Positions 24,528 to 58,951 of a stretch of DNA of 58,951 nucleotides are shown here, piece by piece. The position numbers were made by a program, and so were the translations under genes. The stretch comes from a virus: the IMG/VR virus record IMGVR_UViG_3300031227_000044, positions 1 to 58,951 of that record; one strand, written 5' to 3'. Position 1 is the stretch's first letter, and each line of letters opens with the position of its first letter. The notes under the pieces are model-generated. The model ran no database searches. It was not told the origin of the DNA and worked only from the letters and a program-made list of their open reading frames with translations.

Positions 24528-25685
24528 TTAAAGGGCCAGGTTCAGCCGCCCCTGCGCCGCGTATGGCTCGATTTGCTTCCGGGCCATCTCGCAGTATTCG
24601 GGGTTTGTTTCGATGCCTTTAAACTTTCGGCCAAGCTTGACCGCAGCAACGCCGCTTTTCCCCGATCCGCAGAACGGGTCCAGCACCGTATCCCCGATCC
24701 GCGAACCGGCAAGGATCATCCTGGTAACAAGCTTTTCGGGCCAGACCGCGAAATGCGCCCCCGGGAATGGCTGTGTCGGGATGGTCCAGACGTTGCGGGC
24801 GTTCCGGCCGGCAGGATGGCAGGCTTTTGTAATGTCGGTGGCAAGCGTCTGTCCGCCTGGGCCGTTGGTCCACTTGTGGTTTTCGCTACGTCCTCGCCCG
24901 ACACGGGCCAACGAATCGTCTTTGTGTGGTTCTCTTATCGCGTCCGCGTCGTAGTAGTACCTTTCCGACTTGGCCAGCAAAAACACGTGCTCATGCGAGG
25001 ATGTCGGCCTATCGGTTACGCTTTCCGGCATACAGTTGGGCTTGTGCCATATGATGTCCGACCGCAGATACCAGCCATCGGCCTGCAATGCGAAGGCAAC
25101 GCGCCACGGGATGCCCACGAGGTCCTTGTGCTTCAGGCCAAGGGAAGAAGCATCGTTTTCACGCCGAACAGGTGACTGTTCCTGCGCTTTTCCGCCGGCA
25201 AGCCCGGTTGTACCGTGTCCGCTGTGTGACTTTTTGTGGCCAATGGAGCAGTAAGAGTCCCCTAAGTTCAGCCACAGCGTCCCGTCATCTCGCAGGACCC
25301 GCTTGGCCTCCCGGAAGATGGCCACCAGGTGCTCCACGTAGAGTTCCGGGGTAGGCTCAAGGCCGAGTTGCCCCAACCAGGCCCCGCACTTCTGGCAGAA
25401 CTGCCCGCTTCCGGCTGTCTGGCCCTTGCCAGCGGCGTCGGCTGACTTCCACTTGGTTTGCTCAACCTGCCCCGGGTGGTGAGATGGACCGATGTCGCCC
25501 CACTGGTGCTCACAGGCAGGATCGCCACCCCACTCGGCCGGCTCACCCCCGTAGTCCCTTAGACCCCAATAGGGCGGAGACGTGGCCAGCATTTGAACCG
25601 ACCCCGACTCCATGCCAGCCATCACGTCCAGGCAGTCGCCTTCGATGACAGAATGAGTTACCAGTGGATCAGGCTTTGTTTCCAA
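24528..25685 (-). CDS. DNA methyltransferase (N6-adenine / N4-cytosine type, SPPY)
   Basis: The protein has the catalytic motif SPPYWGLRDYGG and, near the C-terminus, the SAM-binding DPFCGSGKSGVAA. This order (catalytic motif first) is the beta-class arrangement. A central insert contains CEHQW and FCQKCGAWLG, probably a zinc site in the target-recognition region. It methylates an unknown DNA sequence, probably to protect phage DNA. I place the start at a TTG after the promoter; a GTG at 25754 would lie upstream of the promoter's own start point and lacks a ribosome site. It is the first gene of the leftward block facing the control region. Confidence 0.85.
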   Translation of the reverse strand: METKPDPLVTHSVIEGDCLDVMAGMESGSVQMLATSPPYWGLRDYGGEPAEWGGDPACEHQWGDIGPSHHPGQVEQTKWKSADAAGKGQTAGSGQFCQKCGAWLGQLGLEPTPELYVEHLVAIFREAKRVLRDDGTLWLNLGDSYCSIGHKKSHSGHGTTGLAGGKAQEQSPVRRENDASSLGLKHKDLVGIPWRVAFALQADGWYLRSDIIWHKPNCMPESVTDRPTSSHEHVFLLAKSERYYYDADAIREPHKDDSLARVGRGRSENHKWTNGPGGQTLATDITKACHPAGRNARNVWTIPTQPFPGAHFAVWPEKLVTRMILAGSRIGDTVLDPFCGSGKSGVAAVKLGRKFKGIETNPEYCEMARKQIEPYAAQGRLNLAL

Positions 25686-25720
25686 ATAAACCGCCAATGC
25701 AAGATCGTGGTGGGGAGAAC

Positions 25721-25750
25721 AATATAAACCAAAGCGCAGAAGGATGTCAA
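25721..25750 (-). promoter_or_regulatory. Leftward promoter of the methyltransferase gene
   Basis: TTGACA, an 18-base spacer and TATATT form a near-consensus sigma70 promoter reading leftward. The sequence TTGACATCCT is shared with the lipoprotein promoter candidate. It lies inside the longest possible reading of the methyltransferase frame, so the real start should be downstream. Confidence 0.65.
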
Positions 25751-25754
25751 GCAC

Positions 25755-47857: not shown

Positions 47858-48066
47858 AGGAGCAAGGCGACGGTTGGATGATTCGGAGCCCCTTTGTGGG
47901 GGACATGGAGCACACATACAAAGATCACAGGAGTATTTGCATCGAACTTTTCGTGGTGAACTGGCCAAAATTCAAAAATGTTCCGACTGATCTAGCGTGG
48001 TGTCGCCTTAAATACCAAGGCTTCAAATGCGTCAAGGCTCACGTCGGGCCGGGATGGAGGGGATGA
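47854..48066 (+). CDS. Small protein of unknown function
   Basis: The 70-residue protein has a FVGDMEHTYKDHRSICIELFVVNW strand region and a basic C-terminus (CRLKYQGFKCVKAHVGPGWRG). It is coupled to RusA by ATGA. No family is recognised. Confidence 0.55.
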   Translation: MKEQGDGWMIRSPFVGDMEHTYKDHRSICIELFVVNWPKFKNVPTDLAWCRLKYQGFKCVKAHVGPGWRG

Positions 48067-48944
48067 TGAATCCATCAAAAATCTGTTGGGTAGCCAAAGC
48101 CCCCGGTGGTCCAGGGTTCACCTGGAATCCCGTTACGGGTTGCAACCACGGTTGCCCGTTCTGCTATGCCCGGGCCTTTGCAATGCGCAAAATGGGTAGG
48201 TATAAACAGACCGGGTTCAACCCCACGTTCCACTCGGACCGCTTGGGTGAGCCGGCCAAGGTGAAAAGGCCGAGCTTCGTTTTCCTGGGGTCCATGGCCG
48301 GATTATTTGAAGCGGAAAACGTTCTATGGAAGTGGTATGATCACGAAAGCAATTATCGGCATTTTCATTATCAGGGAAAGCCGATCCTCACTCAGCATGA
48401 AATATATAAAGACATCCTCGACGCCATCGAGGCCGCCCCGCAGCACACGTTTGTTGTCCTGACAAAAGGCCCAGCGACCGCGAAGCGGATTATCAAGGAC
48501 GTCGGCCGGCCGCTGCCCCCGAACTTTATTCTTGGGGTGTCGGTCGAGGATCAGGCGACAGCAGATGAACGGATACCCGCCCTGCTGTCCATCCCGGGAC
48601 TTGCAAAAAGAGTTGTCAGTTACGAGCCTGCATTGGGGCCGGTGGACTTTGAATCCATTGCAGACCCCGTAAAAAAATATCGGTCTGCTTTTTCCTTTGC
48701 CGATCCATCCGGCATGGGAAACGGCCCATCCGTACCAAGAGACGCTATGCCAGGTATCGACTGGTTAATCATCGGCCCACAATCCGGCCGTGGTGCTGTG
48801 CCGACCAATCCCCAGTGGGTAGGGGATGCCGTGACACAAGCAAGGTGGAACGGGGTGCCCGTATGGGTCAAGGACGCGATGCCACCGCGCAAAACAGGAA
48901 TGTGGCCGCAAGAGCATCTGTGGAAAGGAGCCAACCGTGGATAA
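48066..48944 (+). CDS. DUF5131 (phage Gp37/Gp68) radical-SAM-like protein
   Basis: The 292-residue protein has TWNPVTGCNHGCPFCYARAFA near the start, a C-x3-C-x2-C cluster as in radical SAM enzymes that hold a 4Fe-4S centre. YEPALGPVDF and WLIIGPQSGRGAVPTNP, typical of DUF5131, follow. The family occurs in many phages; its substrate is not known to me. It may modify a nucleotide or protein. A GGAGGGG ribosome site lies ahead; ATGs at 48063 and 48066 are both possible. Confidence 0.78.
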   Translation: MNPSKICWVAKAPGGPGFTWNPVTGCNHGCPFCYARAFAMRKMGRYKQTGFNPTFHSDRLGEPAKVKRPSFVFLGSMAGLFEAENVLWKWYDHESNYRHFHYQGKPILTQHEIYKDILDAIEAAPQHTFVVLTKGPATAKRIIKDVGRPLPPNFILGVSVEDQATADERIPALLSIPGLAKRVVSYEPALGPVDFESIADPVKKYRSAFSFADPSGMGNGPSVPRDAMPGIDWLIIGPQSGRGAVPTNPQWVGDAVTQARWNGVPVWVKDAMPPRKTGMWPQEHLWKGANRG

Positions 48945-53875: not shown

Positions 53876-54083
53876 AAGCGCAGGACAGGCAGCGGAAAGG
53901 GGCATCATGGAACACCTGGCCTACGATAAAGAGAAGGGCTACCAGACCAATTGGGACTTCGTGCGGCTGGACGTTGTTAGCTATTTGTGGGAGATGCACG
54001 AATTGTTTATGGGCGATGCGATCAAGGTCTACGGGAAAGCGAAAAGGAAACACGAATCAGTCCTTGATCCAACCACGACTTAG
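53865..54083 (+). CDS. Last rightward gene, small helical protein
   Basis: The 72-residue protein is acidic and helical (GQAAERGIMEHLAYDKEKGY, RLDVVSYLWEMHELFMGDAIKV). GAAGGAG precedes the start within the previous gene. Its 3' end overlaps the convergent leftward epimerase gene by 27 bases, so the two transcription units meet tail to tail without a visible terminator. Confidence 0.58.
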   Translation: MDDESAGQAAERGIMEHLAYDKEKGYQTNWDFVRLDVVSYLWEMHELFMGDAIKVYGKAKRKHESVLDPTTT

Positions 54084-54962
54084 GTAGTCTGCAATCGTCT
54101 TGGTCAGTCCACTACGAAGGTCAGTCTTGGGCGTCCAGTCCAGTTCTTCCTCTGCCGTCACGAAGTCCATGCACGACAGCGGGTTTCCGCCCGACTCAGA
54201 AGAGTAATGCAGAACCTCGATTTTGTCCGTGACCAATTCTTCGATCATCGACCACAACTTGTTGACGGACGTGGCAATGCTGGTCGAGACATTCACGGTT
54301 TTCCCGTCCCCTACTTTCCCGGCCATCCGGAACGCCAACACAACGTCATCCACGTATACGAAGTCCCGCTGCTGTTCGCCCGATCCCTTGATGGCCGCAG
54401 CCCGTCCCTCCAGTGCAGCCTTCAGGAAAGACCCCACCACGGCCTTAGGCTTCCACTGGTGCCCATATACGTTGCTGAGCCGTATGATCGTAGCCCGAAG
54501 GCCCTTCTGCTCATACAGGCGAATGTACTCCTCACTCGCGGACTTCGTGATGCCATAGGCGCTTCTCCACGGCGCCTCTTGAGGACTCCACCGGTCTTGC
54601 GGAAGACTGTACATGGCCCCGGTGCCGGCGAAGACCAGCTTGGCTCCACAGGCCAGGCAGGAACCAGCCGTCGCCACGGTCGCCTCGATGTTCGACTGGA
54701 TCCCCTTCCGCAGGATATCGAGGTCAAGCGAAGAGGCTATCCCGGATTCAGCGGCCAAATGAAAAACCACATCCGGGTTGAACTCCCGAATTGCTCTCTG
54801 GGCCTCCGGGGTTTCCAGTCTCGCTTGAATATGGTTGGACCACGGCCTTGGAAAAGGAAGGGGCAGGAGGTCCACCGTGAGAACATGGTGGGCTTCTTGT
54901 TCCAGGCTTGCGGCCAGGTGTCCCCCGATGAACCCTGCCGCCCCTGTTACCACGGCCTTCAT
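54057..54962 (-). CDS. NAD-dependent sugar epimerase/dehydratase (extended SDR)
   Basis: The 301-residue protein has the Rossmann motif GAAGFIGGHLA, DVVFHLAAESG in the second strand region and the catalytic pair in YGITKSASEEY. It would convert a nucleotide sugar, perhaps like UDP-glucose 4-epimerase; the substrate cannot be told. The start with ATGA overlap to the next leftward gene was chosen over a GTG upstream. It is the last gene of the glycan cluster. Confidence 0.8.
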   Translation of the reverse strand: MKAVVTGAAGFIGGHLAASLEQEAHHVLTVDLLPLPFPRPWSNHIQARLETPEAQRAIREFNPDVVFHLAAESGIASSLDLDILRKGIQSNIEATVATAGSCLACGAKLVFAGTGAMYSLPQDRWSPQEAPWRSAYGITKSASEEYIRLYEQKGLRATIIRLSNVYGHQWKPKAVVGSFLKAALEGRAAAIKGSGEQQRDFVYVDDVVLAFRMAGKVGDGKTVNVSTSIATSVNKLWSMIEELVTDKIEVLHYSSESGGNPLSCMDFVTAEEELDWTPKTDLRSGLTKTIADYLSRGWIKD

Positions 54963-56119
54963 AGACGCCACTGCACTTTGGGCAGGATGGAATCCTGGCA
55001 GTCACGAATCCGATCCGCATGAGGAGCCAGGTCGGACAACATGGCCAGCAATTCAGCCTTCATGTCATGGGTGGGTACATAGCCCAGGTCGAGGAGCTTT
55101 TGATGGTCAGGCTCGTAGAAATGTTCTTCTGCTTCTTTCCTTGGGTTCTGGACGGCCTGGATCGCAATCTCCCTCTCGAACACTTCCTGGCCGGCTTCCG
55201 CAACGGCTTCCGCCAACTCGGTGATGCCGTAGATGTCCTCAAACTGGTTGACGACCCGGTATTCACCTTCCGCAGGGGGCTTCTCCAGCAGCAGCGTCAT
55301 GCACTGGATGGAGTCCCGCAGAGTCAGAAACCCCCGAATCTGGCGACCCTTGCCGTAAGGGGTCAGGGGCAGCCCGATGGTAGCTTGAGCACAGAAGCGA
55401 TTGATGACCGTCCCGAACGCTTCGTCGAAGTCGAACCGGGTACATAGTCCGGGATCCAACATGGTCTCGTCCGTCTTGGTTCCGTAGACCGGGCCCTGCA
55501 TGATGTCGGTGGACCGGAAGCCCCACGCTTTGCACACGAGAGCGATGTTGGTTGAGTCGTGAACTTTGGTGGCATGGTAGAAGCTGCCCGCAGCTTTGGG
55601 GAACGGGACGGTGGCGGTGTGGCCCTTGTAGCTCATCTCGCAGAACCCTTCAGCAATGGGCATCCCGGGCGTTCCATATTCGCCCATCGTTCCCAGCTTC
55701 AGCAGGTGGGTTTTCGGGCAAGCCTTTTGCATGGCCCAGAGCAACGACAGGGTGCCGTTGATGTTGTTGTCGTGGGTGAAGCGGGCGTGTTCGAAATCAA
55801 TCATGGAGTACGGAGCCGATGGCATCTCGCCCAGGTGAACGATTGCGTCCGGTTGGAAGATTTCCAGCAAGTTAACCACCACGGCATGATTCCGAACGTC
55901 AATTTCCTGGTAGTCAATAGATTTTCCGGTCTTGTCTTGAAAGATTCCCAGACGCTCCCTCATGGGAAGAATGGGCAACGCCGAGACACTTCCCATCTCC
56001 GCTACCATGTCCCGGCGACTCCCGTTGTCGATGCCAAAAACATCATGACCGCGCTGCGCCAGGTGCATTGCCAGGGGCCAACCAAGATAGCCGTCCATTC
56101 CGATGATGAAAATCTTCAT
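54959..56119 (-). CDS. UDP-sulfoquinovose synthase (SQD1)-like enzyme
   Basis: The 386-residue protein has the long family signature of SQD1: IIGMDGYLGWPLAMHLA, VHLGEMPSAPYSMIDFE, KLGTMGEYGTPGMPIAEG, SFYHATKVHDSTNIALVCKAWG and PYGKGRQIRGFLTLRDS. SQD1 makes UDP-sulfoquinovose from UDP-glucose and sulfite. The catalytic Thr in LGTMGEYGTP and the Tyr-Lys in YHATK are retained. It is unexpected in a phage and may make a sulfonated sugar for a glycan. Coupling by ATGA joins it to neighbours. The family is near certain; the product is inferred. Confidence 0.85.
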   Translation of the reverse strand: MKIFIIGMDGYLGWPLAMHLAQRGHDVFGIDNGSRRDMVAEMGSVSALPILPMRERLGIFQDKTGKSIDYQEIDVRNHAVVVNLLEIFQPDAIVHLGEMPSAPYSMIDFEHARFTHDNNINGTLSLLWAMQKACPKTHLLKLGTMGEYGTPGMPIAEGFCEMSYKGHTATVPFPKAAGSFYHATKVHDSTNIALVCKAWGFRSTDIMQGPVYGTKTDETMLDPGLCTRFDFDEAFGTVINRFCAQATIGLPLTPYGKGRQIRGFLTLRDSIQCMTLLLEKPPAEGEYRVVNQFEDIYGITELAEAVAEAGQEVFEREIAIQAVQNPRKEAEEHFYEPDHQKLLDLGYVPTHDMKAELLAMLSDLAPHADRIRDCQDSILPKVQWRL

Positions 56120-56928
56120 TTCAGTCTTTCCATGTGCGAGGTGTATAACGCCTGTGCTTCTTCGACACTAGAACAAGGAAAGAGCAACAAGGAGGCGTGT
56201 TCTCTGGCCCCTTTCGTGCGCTTCCCACCCGGCATCCACTGTAGCTCTATTTCGTCAAACTTCTTCTCAGCCGGGGGCCGGGGCCTGGTGGCCCGAATTT
56301 CCCCCCCGACAAATTGGCCTTGAGTTGACGACAACGATTCGACGATCAGGCCAAACCCTTCCGAGGTGCCCATAGCGCATCCCCAGCCGTGGCCAGTAAA
56401 CCCAACCTTCAGTCGTTGCGGAATCGGGGCCTCCACCATCGGCTCAACGGCCAGAGGCTCCCATGCCTTCTGCTCGTCAGATCGAATGCCCATGTACGTT
56501 GGCCTCACTGCCCCAACGGCGTATCTTTGCGTAGCCCCTCCTGGAGCGAGGAAGCAAATCGAAGTGTCCCCAGATGATTCGATATCTCGCAAATACATGC
56601 GGCTTACATCGATCCTCAACACTCTTGGGTCATCGGTTTCCATCAGAACGGTTCTGAACTCTTGAGTGTCCCCCCGACCTTCTTCCGTGCGGGACTCCCC
56701 CCTTATCAGTATCCCGGATTTGGTTCGGACAACCTTGGCGTCTTCGCAATACAGCCCTCCGAGGAAGTGATTAGCAGACCGATATTTTTGATCTACCCGT
56801 ACCTCTGGGAACAACTCGATAACCTCGTGGAGGGCGCCCCTGTCCGACAGGACGCCATCTTTGCCCGAAAATCGAATCAATCCTCTTGAAAGAACTTCAA
56901 CCGTATAATGTGAAGTTGAAATCTCCAT
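56116..56928 (-). CDS. Beta-rich protein of unknown function in the glycan cluster
   Basis: The 270-residue protein has many beta strands (STSHYTVEVLSRGLIRFSGKDGV, VVRTKSGILIRGES, LRIDVSRMYLRDIE) and a late GFTGHGWGCAMGTSEGFGLIVESL. It resembles a carbohydrate-binding or mutarotase-like sandwich in general pattern only. The start was set at MEISTSHYT, two bases after the upstream stop, because longer forms would overlap that gene entirely. Its glycan role is inferred from context. Confidence 0.55.
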   Translation of the reverse strand: MEISTSHYTVEVLSRGLIRFSGKDGVLSDRGALHEVIELFPEVRVDQKYRSANHFLGGLYCEDAKVVRTKSGILIRGESRTEEGRGDTQEFRTVLMETDDPRVLRIDVSRMYLRDIESSGDTSICFLAPGGATQRYAVGAVRPTYMGIRSDEQKAWEPLAVEPMVEAPIPQRLKVGFTGHGWGCAMGTSEGFGLIVESLSSTQGQFVGGEIRATRPRPPAEKKFDEIELQWMPGGKRTKGAREHASLLLFPCSSVEEAQALYTSHMERLK

Positions 56929-56930
56929 CG

Positions 56931-57557
56931 TCAGCGCTTTCTCCACACATAGAGAGTAATGACTCTGTTGTTGAAATCTCTCGTCATCGTCAGGAATGGA
57001 TACAGGGAAGGAGGTGTGGCCTTGCGAACCTCTGAGGTCGTCAGATAGGAACGTATTTGTTTCCGATTCCGTTCGTCTTGATACCAATCCAAGGCGACGT
57101 AACCCCCTGGCCTTAGCAACTCCGAGGATCGAGACAAGAATTCGTCGGGCCCTTGTTCGAGATCGTACCAAGAATCCATGCAGCTAATCAGGCCCAAAGA
57201 CGCTGGGGCCATACCGTCCAAGGGGTCTAGCTTGCTTCCCTGTCGGAACTCTGCTGGTATTCCAACCTTGTCCCACAGACCTTTGGCGATCAGGCCCTTG
57301 GATGCGTCATAGTCCGTGCCGATCAGATTGCGGTAGCCCATGTCGCCGATGTAGGCCAGCCAGAAGCCAACGCCACAGCACACGTCCACAATCGGGGCAT
57401 CTTTCGGAAGGCTCGGAAGAACATGACCCCTGAGGTTTGAGATAATCCACCCACCGGACTGCCTGGGGTTTCGACGGAGGAAATATCCCAAATACCGATC
57501 CCGAAGTTCAGGGGCCAGGTCCTCCAAGGCCGCTTGGATTTTATCTCCTATCTCCAC
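56931..57557 (-). CDS. SAM-dependent methyltransferase
   Basis: The 208-residue protein has a class I fold with APIVDVCCGVGFWLAYIGDMG (motif I), LIGTDYDASKGLI and a later LLRPGGYVALDWYQ. In its setting it may methylate a sugar or lipid head group. It overlaps the adjacent GT-MT gene by ten bases. The substrate is unknown. Confidence 0.72.
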   Translation of the reverse strand: MEIGDKIQAALEDLAPELRDRYLGYFLRRNPRQSGGWIISNLRGHVLPSLPKDAPIVDVCCGVGFWLAYIGDMGYRNLIGTDYDASKGLIAKGLWDKVGIPAEFRQGSKLDPLDGMAPASLGLISCMDSWYDLEQGPDEFLSRSSELLRPGGYVALDWYQDERNRKQIRSYLTTSEVRKATPPSLYPFLTMTRDFNNRVITLYVWRKR

Positions 57558-58891
57558 AGTTCCACCGCCATGAGATCCCTGGTTACTTTTGTCTGCCCGC
57601 GATGAACGACCATGCGGGCCGGCTTGACGGCTTCAAACAGCTTGGTCCAGGACTTCTCGCGAAGGCGCTGATAGATGAACCCGGACTGAATCAGGGTCTT
57701 GTCCTCGGGCAAAAGGTCTACCCCGAATACGCGCACAATCAATACCGTGCCGGTTATCCTCCAAAGTTCCGAGATGGCAGTGGGGATTTTGTCGAGAGGC
57801 AAGTGCGGAAGCACCGCCGCACAGTTGACGAACGGATGGCTGCGTGTTTTCTGCTTGCTCTTGAAGATGTCGTCCAGTTCAACGTCGATGGCCGGGAATC
57901 TTTCTCGGGCCCGGAGAAGCATATCCCTGGTAACGTCCACGCCCTTGTAGGACAATTTCAAAACCTTGGATAACTCGGGGTAGTCTTCGCCAGTACCGCA
58001 GCCGAAATCAAGCACTGTTGACGACCCGGACTCGGGCGCCACATCATGGAGGATATCGTAGTAAAGCTTCCGCCGTTCCTGCTGGTTAGGGTCATTCTTC
58101 CAGAAATCCTCAACCGCTTCTCGTGCAGGAGCCTGCTCCCATCGCTGCCACCACCGATCATCGAATATCCGCTCCAACTCCTTCAGGGAGTTTGTCCAGG
58201 AAATCCCCCGGCTCCGAACTTCAGCGATCCGCTTGGGCGCATCCTGCACTCGCTGGAGTTGAAAGACCTCTGGCACATGAAAGCCCTTGATCCCATTCCT
58301 GAGCATGTGCCAGACGACCCGCCATTCCTCGTGCTCGGGGAAGGAGCGATCCAGGTAGGGCGATACCGTCTCCCAGGCGGATCGACGGTAGGCATAGTAG
58401 GAACCCCTGAACAGGTTGGCCTTGCTGCGGTCCTGGATCATCTGAGATGTCCGGACAATCTCATCGCCTGCCTTATGAGAGCCGTCACTCTGGTCCACCA
58501 TGAACTGAGCTTGGATGTCGGTATGGACGAAGCCCACATCAGCGGCCACGCTGTCGAGGGGAAGGGGCCCCAAGGCCAAATCGTCATCGTCAAGATTGAC
58601 AATCCAATCCCCGGAAGCCTTGTCGAAAAGACCAAATCTGGCCCTTGCCAAGTCTTTGCGCTGGTCCGTCCCACCGAGAATCTTGATTTCCACGCCGGGG
58701 CGCCCACGCAAAGCCGCACGACTCACTCTGGCGATGTCGGCATGATCGTAGCCGTACTTCCCGGATGACACTTGCGGGCTGATGCCGAAGAGGATTTCAT
58801 TCGGCAGCGCGTATTTCAGAAGCGACTCGATGGCTTCCTGCACAACCTTGAAGTCTGGTTGGGAGATAAGCATACAGGCGGTGACTTTCAT
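57548..58891 (-). CDS. Glycosyltransferase-methyltransferase fusion
   Basis: The 447-residue protein has two parts. The first (about residues 1-250) is GT-A like: a CMLISQPDF start, RKDLARARFGLFDKASGDWIVNLDDDD with a DxD-type metal site and a later SFPEHEEWRVVWHML. The second (about 280-447) is a class I methyltransferase with STVLDFGCGTGEDYPELS. Together they could add and then methylate a terminal sugar. The gene is coupled by ATGA to the partial gene upstream. The family calls are good; the acceptor is unknown. Confidence 0.78.
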   Translation of the reverse strand: MKVTACMLISQPDFKVVQEAIESLLKYALPNEILFGISPQVSSGKYGYDHADIARVSRAALRGRPGVEIKILGGTDQRKDLARARFGLFDKASGDWIVNLDDDDLALGPLPLDSVAADVGFVHTDIQAQFMVDQSDGSHKAGDEIVRTSQMIQDRSKANLFRGSYYAYRRSAWETVSPYLDRSFPEHEEWRVVWHMLRNGIKGFHVPEVFQLQRVQDAPKRIAEVRSRGISWTNSLKELERIFDDRWWQRWEQAPAREAVEDFWKNDPNQQERRKLYYDILHDVAPESGSSTVLDFGCGTGEDYPELSKVLKLSYKGVDVTRDMLLRARERFPAIDVELDDIFKSKQKTRSHPFVNCAAVLPHLPLDKIPTAISELWRITGTVLIVRVFGVDLLPEDKTLIQSGFIYQRLREKSWTKLFEAVKPARMVVHRGQTKVTRDLMAVELWR

Positions 58892-58951
58892 TTCAATGCC
58901 TCCAAGATTTGGCTTCCAACTGTTTGGCGATCAAACAGAAGGCCGCGTTTT
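58888..58951 (-). CDS. Partial gene, probable glycosyltransferase C-terminus
   Basis: Only the last 20 residues are visible (RGLLFDRQTVGSQILEALK). The G-x-LF start and helical end resemble the C-terminal end of GT-B glycosyltransferases. Its stop overlaps the next start by ATGA. The rest lies outside the window. Confidence 0.35.
   Translation of the reverse strand, partial: KRGLLFDRQTVGSQILEALK

Follow-up and report, generated by a model that had tools for sequence, protein, structure and literature searches.

What would a phage make with an enzyme of the sulfoquinovose pathway? Sulfoquinovose is found in photosynthetic membranes and in some archaeal glycoproteins, and plants and bacteria use SQD1 homologues to produce the headgroup of their sulfolipid. 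The question is raised by IMG/VR virus record IMGVR_UViG_3300031227_000044, a linear record of 58951 bases that was analysed whole (the window) and that carries an SQD1-like gene among five open reading frames (ORFs) at its right end. The record encodes a portal, a large terminase, a tail sheath, a tape measure and a baseplate hub, and it therefore belongs to a contractile-tailed phage. The reading we favour, with confidence somewhat above even, is that the gene encodes a phage uridine diphosphate (UDP)-sulfoquinovose synthase of a branch with proline at position 100 (Pro100-type, or Pro-type), which would feed a methylated sulfonated glycan on the virion or host surface. The five ORFs form a minus-strand operon read from 58891 to 54057, in which neighbouring genes overlap by 4-13 nucleotides (nt) or are separated by 3 nt:

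54057..54971, minus strand: nucleoside diphosphate (NDP)-sugar epimerase of the short-chain dehydrogenase/reductase (SDR) family, 304 residues from a GTG start, with an ATG at 54962 (PF01370, the Pfam Epimerase family, E 6e-41; phrog_540, nucleotide-sugar epimerase, E 3.8e-57)
54959..56119, minus strand: SQD1/Agl3-family enzyme, 386 residues, putative UDP-sulfoquinovose synthase (NF041015, E 7.2e-160; active-site residues and trees below)
56116..56928, minus strand: orphan protein, about 270 residues from ATG 56928 (no family match)
56931..57557, minus strand: class I S-adenosylmethionine-dependent methyltransferase, 208 residues (PF13489, E 2e-7; PF13649, E 4e-6)
57548..58891, minus strand: 447-residue protein with a C-terminal class I methyltransferase and an N-terminal region weakly like glycosyltransferase family 2 (GT2) (PF13649, E 9.8e-11; PF00535, E 0.0025)

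The first gene of the operon begins 60 bases from the contig end, and the glycan cluster may therefore be truncated.

The original prediction described the SQD1-like protein as full-length, and this is confirmed far beyond chance. The match to the NCBIfam model NF041015 (UDP-sulfoquinovose synthase) reaches 532 bits and covers model positions 1-384 of 384. Among solved structures, the best match is Arabidopsis SQD1 (PDB 1qrr/1i24; E 1e-110 with 1qrr), with 45% identity over the whole length. The nearest cellular relatives are bacterial, with up to 59% identity. In comparison with the 532 bits, the dTDP-glucose dehydratase model scores 38 bits and the GalE models score 27-32 bits; these scores and the tree set the protein apart from GalE/RmlB-type SDR enzymes. 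The window gene is a genuine SQD1/Agl3-family enzyme. Residues His95, Thr144, Met145, Gly146, Glu147, Tyr148, Tyr181 and Lys185 are kept in the protein. A profile-guided scan found SQD1-family relatives in at least 95 other viral contigs, of which 80 relatives were retained, all with an open frame over the match. Across this viral set, His95, the T144-M-G-E-Y148 motif, Y181 and K185 are near-invariant.

The phylogeny leads to the same family. Trees were built by a quick maximum-likelihood method, with support from the Shimodaira-Hasegawa-like approximate likelihood-ratio test (SH-aLRT) only and with the trait column excluded. Agl3 itself is not among the tree rows, and the label "Agl3-like" is given to rows that score above the family cut-off and carry the FAEQRSAP and KMGTMGEY motifs printed for Agl3. 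The window protein groups with Pro-type proteins from both bacteria and viruses (support 93-96), and its closest partners are viral (L091, L092, L095 and L105, where L numbers denote loci that carry relatives; support 81-89). This group is nested in a 99-supported clade with the Agl3-like set, and the SQD1 clade and the rhizobial outgroup lie outside that clade. A phylogeny was the check proposed for separating SQD1 from related epimerases, and it places the protein among SQD1 and Agl3-like proteins, not among GalE/RmlB-type epimerases. The viral proteins are scattered over several places in the tree; on the starred branches, the viral Pro label requires at least five changes in the first tree and at least three in the second.

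The operon and the neighbours of related viral genes support a glycan role. An epimerase and a class I methyltransferase stand beside the SQD1-like gene, in line with the original prediction. The start of the epimerase gene overlaps the SQD1-like gene, and its product keeps the YxxxK motif and has T-G-A where 4,6-dehydratases have T-D-E; the D-E pair is a fingerprint of 4,6-dehydratases (PMC8987622). SQD1-SDR neighbours recur in viruses (L086, L087, L092, L095/L096, L101 and L159), and L086 and L087 show the same kind of start/stop overlap as the window. Within four genes of SQD1 in related viruses, the commonest neighbours are GT2 proteins, methyltransferases, GT-1-like proteins and epimerases, and another viral group has NeuB and a cytidylyltransferase among the neighbours. 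The methyltransferase half of the predicted fusion protein of a glycosyltransferase (GT) and a methyltransferase (57548-58891) is clear, with PF13649 matched at residues 293-379, and the gene has a good Shine-Dalgarno sequence before its ATG. Its GT half stands on a 30-residue match to PF00535 around a GT-A-like DDDD motif. The orphan protein, by contrast with its description as a probable second glycosyltransferase, matches no Pfam or NCBIfam family, no PDB sequence and, in a pattern scan, no viral contig. ATG 56928 is its most likely start, judged from the sequence; a longer TTG frame to 57171 would overlap the methyltransferase by 241 nt. Scans of viral contigs found no relatives of the window epimerase or of the GT-methyltransferase protein. 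AlphaFold models made without an alignment are unusable for both the orphan and the GT-methyltransferase protein (predicted local distance difference test scores of 38 and 35, respectively).

We propose the following route. With bound NAD+, the SQD1-like enzyme would oxidise UDP-glucose at C4 and dehydrate the product to a 5,6-ene; host-derived sulfite would be added at C6, and re-reduction at C4 would give UDP-sulfoquinovose. Next, the adjoining SDR enzyme would either epimerise UDP-sulfoquinovose or supply a second sugar to partner it. Assembly and capping of the methylated, sulfonated glycan would fall to the likely GT domain together with the two methyltransferase domains, and the acceptor would be virion tail proteins or a host surface molecule.

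A link to sulfite is found in other viruses. The enzyme (phospho)adenylyl-sulfate ((P)APS) reductase makes sulfite, and a complete PAPS reductase gene lies on the same strand at most two genes from SQD1 in L089 (9063-9770; near-copy L088) and in L094 (9357-10004). The two reductases score 188 and 179 bits, respectively, against a curated phosphoadenylyl-sulfate reductase cut-off of 154, and both have the CC, CxxC and GECGIH motifs. These two lineages hold the only PF01507 genes among 47 viral SQD1 records, and the probability that both would lie within 1.2 kb of SQD1 by chance is about 0.005, a rough figure that ignores the rarity of the gene in phages. Isolated phage records contain almost no relatives of the L089 reductase. 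On the Rhodobacteraceae plasmid CP081099.1 (L173, with arginine at the position in question), SQD1, sulfotransferase and PAPS reductase genes stand in a row. The reductase linkage is indirect support, from other viruses, for sulfite use by SQD1 enzymes, including the Pro-type.

Several observations weigh against a sulfite-adding synthase that feeds a glycan in this phage. The score of 532 bits misses the curated equivalog cut-off of NF041015 (575 bits) by 43 bits; none of ten viral records tested passes it, the best reaching 543 bits. We found no PAPS reductase (PF01507) in the window, and sulfite would therefore need to come from the host; the reductase linkage itself is a small sample of two lineages. 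The PF00535 match in the N-terminus of the 447-residue protein (residues 76-105) scores 18.2 bits, below the cut-off of 23.3, and its E-value is 9e-5 in a one-record search. As far as the sequences indicate, no GT that would accept sulfoquinovose is identified in the operon. To our knowledge, no Pro-type enzyme has been assayed. The position of Agl3 Arg101 is Pro100 in the window protein, so the claim that the catalytic motifs are kept holds for His95, TMGEY, Tyr181 and Lys185, and it does not hold for this residue, which is essential in Agl3.

How much does the proline matter? In Agl3, Zolghadr et al. found that alanine at His95, Arg101, Met145, Tyr182 or Lys186 gives an inactive enzyme, that Glu147 and Tyr148 mutants are strongly impaired and that T144A is active (PMC4388408). 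We read Arg101 and its setting, EQRSAP, from the mutagenesis primers printed there. Arginine is held by SQD1 and its bacterial neighbours, by Thermoplasmata, by most Agl3-like Thermoproteota and by a rhizobial gene (L170). Four Pro-type archaeal proteins (L194-L197) score above the curated NF041015 cut-off, and arginine at position 101 is therefore perhaps not family-defining; these proteins favour sulfite use by Pro-type enzymes, as judged from their sequences. The available text of a Nitrososphaerota glycoproteomics study (PMC12153357) reports no sulfoquinovose, which speaks neither for nor against a Pro-type function. Loss of key residues was to count against the original prediction, and here that check is ambiguous: almost all of the viral proteins have proline in place of an Agl3-essential arginine, and the other residues are kept. 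A large natural branch that replaces this arginine poses a testable biochemical question.

The main rival to the UDP-sulfoquinovose reading, which we consider unlikely but well ahead of the other alternatives, is that the Pro100-type enzyme has diverged. It would oxidise and dehydrate UDP-glucose or another UDP-hexose without adding sulfite, yielding the 5,6-ene or using another nucleophile, and the neighbouring SDR would complete an unusual deoxy- or 6-substituted sugar. Proline replaces the arginine in 78 of the 80 viral relatives and in 61 of the 80 nearest cellular ones, and the characterised proteins that were checked (Arabidopsis SQD1 and, from the primers, Agl3) have arginine. Without sulfite, Agl3 releases the 5,6-ene (PMC4388408), in line with the rival; however, the R101A change abolished even this sulfite-free reaction (PMC4388408). 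This result therefore does not establish Arg101 itself as a residue that binds sulfite, and the position does not act as a specific sulfite switch. A same-strand SDR gene adjoins SQD1 in 10 of 61 Pro-type and 0 of 19 Arg-type cellular loci (Fisher p 0.055), which agrees with a diverged pathway, whereas the (P)APS reductases beside Pro-type genes in two viral lineages do not. The second tree also speaks against the rival, as only three Arg/Pro changes are needed and Arg-type Agl3-like rows are nested among Pro-type rows.

We regard it as improbable that the gene is an auxiliary metabolic gene feeding host sulfolipid or general sulfur metabolism instead of a phage-directed glycan. The sulfolipid headgroup is the known product of plant and bacterial homologues, and a glycosyl transferase gene comes directly after the rhizobial copy in L170. 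However, the neighbours in the window are methyltransferase, GT-like and SDR genes, with no recognised lipid sulfoquinovosyltransferase among them; related viruses carry GT2/methyltransferase clusters near virion genes, and the nearest bacterial relatives stand in polysaccharide-type clusters. Still less probable is a sugar destined for glycosylated hypermodified bases in phage DNA. This idea draws on a virus-only clade (28 rows) in which the SQD1-like gene sits in a replication module, usually after dCMP deaminase and near ParB, polA and primase, but a thymidylate-synthase-family (hydroxymethylase) gene was found in 0 of 21 records tested, and the window gene lies outside the replication module, in an opposite-strand operon. 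Host contamination or an assembly chimera joining a bacterial polysaccharide cluster to the contig end, which the terminal position of the cluster and the 59% bacterial identity might suggest, is the least probable explanation, as the GC content and third-codon-position GC of the five genes broadly match those of the rest of the phage's genes, the last gene of the operon shares 27 nt with the adjoining plus-strand phage ORF, and like clusters stand beside virion genes in viral contigs L086, L087 and L092.

Beyond the window, we tentatively suggest, at somewhat under even confidence, that many phage lineages make their own sulfonated sugar with Pro100-type synthases gained from cells several times, and that some of these viruses carry a dedicated sulfite-making reductase beside the synthase gene. 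The product of the branch would be UDP-sulfoquinovose or an epimerised relative, and it would decorate virions or host envelopes. If true, phages would be producers of sulfonated sugars, and sulfate reduction would be tied to phage glycan coats.

Other features of the viral loci are recorded here in their own right. Of 12 loci examined (L125, L137, L140-L146, L154, L156 and L158), 11 have a glycosyltransferase of phrog_14945 (about 230-260 residues) directly upstream of the viral SQD1-like gene; it is a candidate sulfoquinovosyltransferase. In L104, L124, L133, L149, L151, L153, L155 and L159, the SQD1-like gene has a NeuB-family gene at most two genes away. Cytidylyltransferases and sulfotransferases also occur in a neighbour set taken in part from these loci, a hint that phages make nonulosonic acid glycans. 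In the virus-only clade of 28 non-redundant proteins, the gene is mostly within a conserved replication module. Viruses with this module (L097-L139, L147 and L157; example L147:7059-17536) mostly belong to that clade, and the order is Sak4-like protein, phrog_6802, dCMP deaminase, an 83-residue protein, ParB-like/DNA-methyltransferase, DNA polymerase and primase. The dCMP deaminase is present in 29 of the replication-module SQD1-like loci and directly upstream in 26, and most of these genomes have GT2 genes elsewhere.

Large-terminase relatives of the phage reach at most 45% identity and leave the phage group and host unassigned. Among INPHARED isolated phages, there is no DNA match to the operon cluster and no tblastn match to the window SQD1-like protein, and the L147 SQD1-like protein finds a partial 30% match only. 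No exact terminal repeat of at least 15 bases was found at the contig ends. The plus-strand module adjoining the operon includes a DUF5131 protein (48027-48944; PF07505, E 2.5e-38), and a DNA methyltransferase lies apart from the operon on the minus strand (24528-25754; phrog_67, E 1e-67).

The occurrence of the SQD1 family in viruses is not new. A Mu-like virus from the Cariaco Basin has been reported to carry a putative UDP-sulfoquinovose synthase (PMC7785012), the same gene family on a viral contig; as far as its available text goes, that report concerns one gene in one virus, and our analysis adds the active site, the branch, the partners and the breadth. Bacterial Pro-type pairs (L003, L005, L008, L010, L025 and L040), which include the closest cellular relatives of the window protein, resemble the window in having an SDR epimerase directly downstream of SQD1. 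They differ in lying on cellular contigs, in polysaccharide-type settings such as that of L008, where the pair is accompanied by a polysaccharide flippase and glycosyltransferase-type neighbours, and their function is predicted. Arabidopsis SQD1 is collinear with the window protein over its full length and has the Rossmann, T-M-G-E-Y and YxxxK motifs in common with it, but it has arginine at the Agl3-101 position and serves a plastid sulfolipid pathway, whereas the window gene lies in a phage glycan operon. Agl3 of Sulfolobus acidocaldarius, which retains Arg101, belongs to the same NF041015 family, below whose cut-off the window protein falls, and Agl3-like archaeal rows fall together with the window protein in the 99-supported clade. 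The role of Agl3 in protein N-glycosylation provides a precedent for glycan use.

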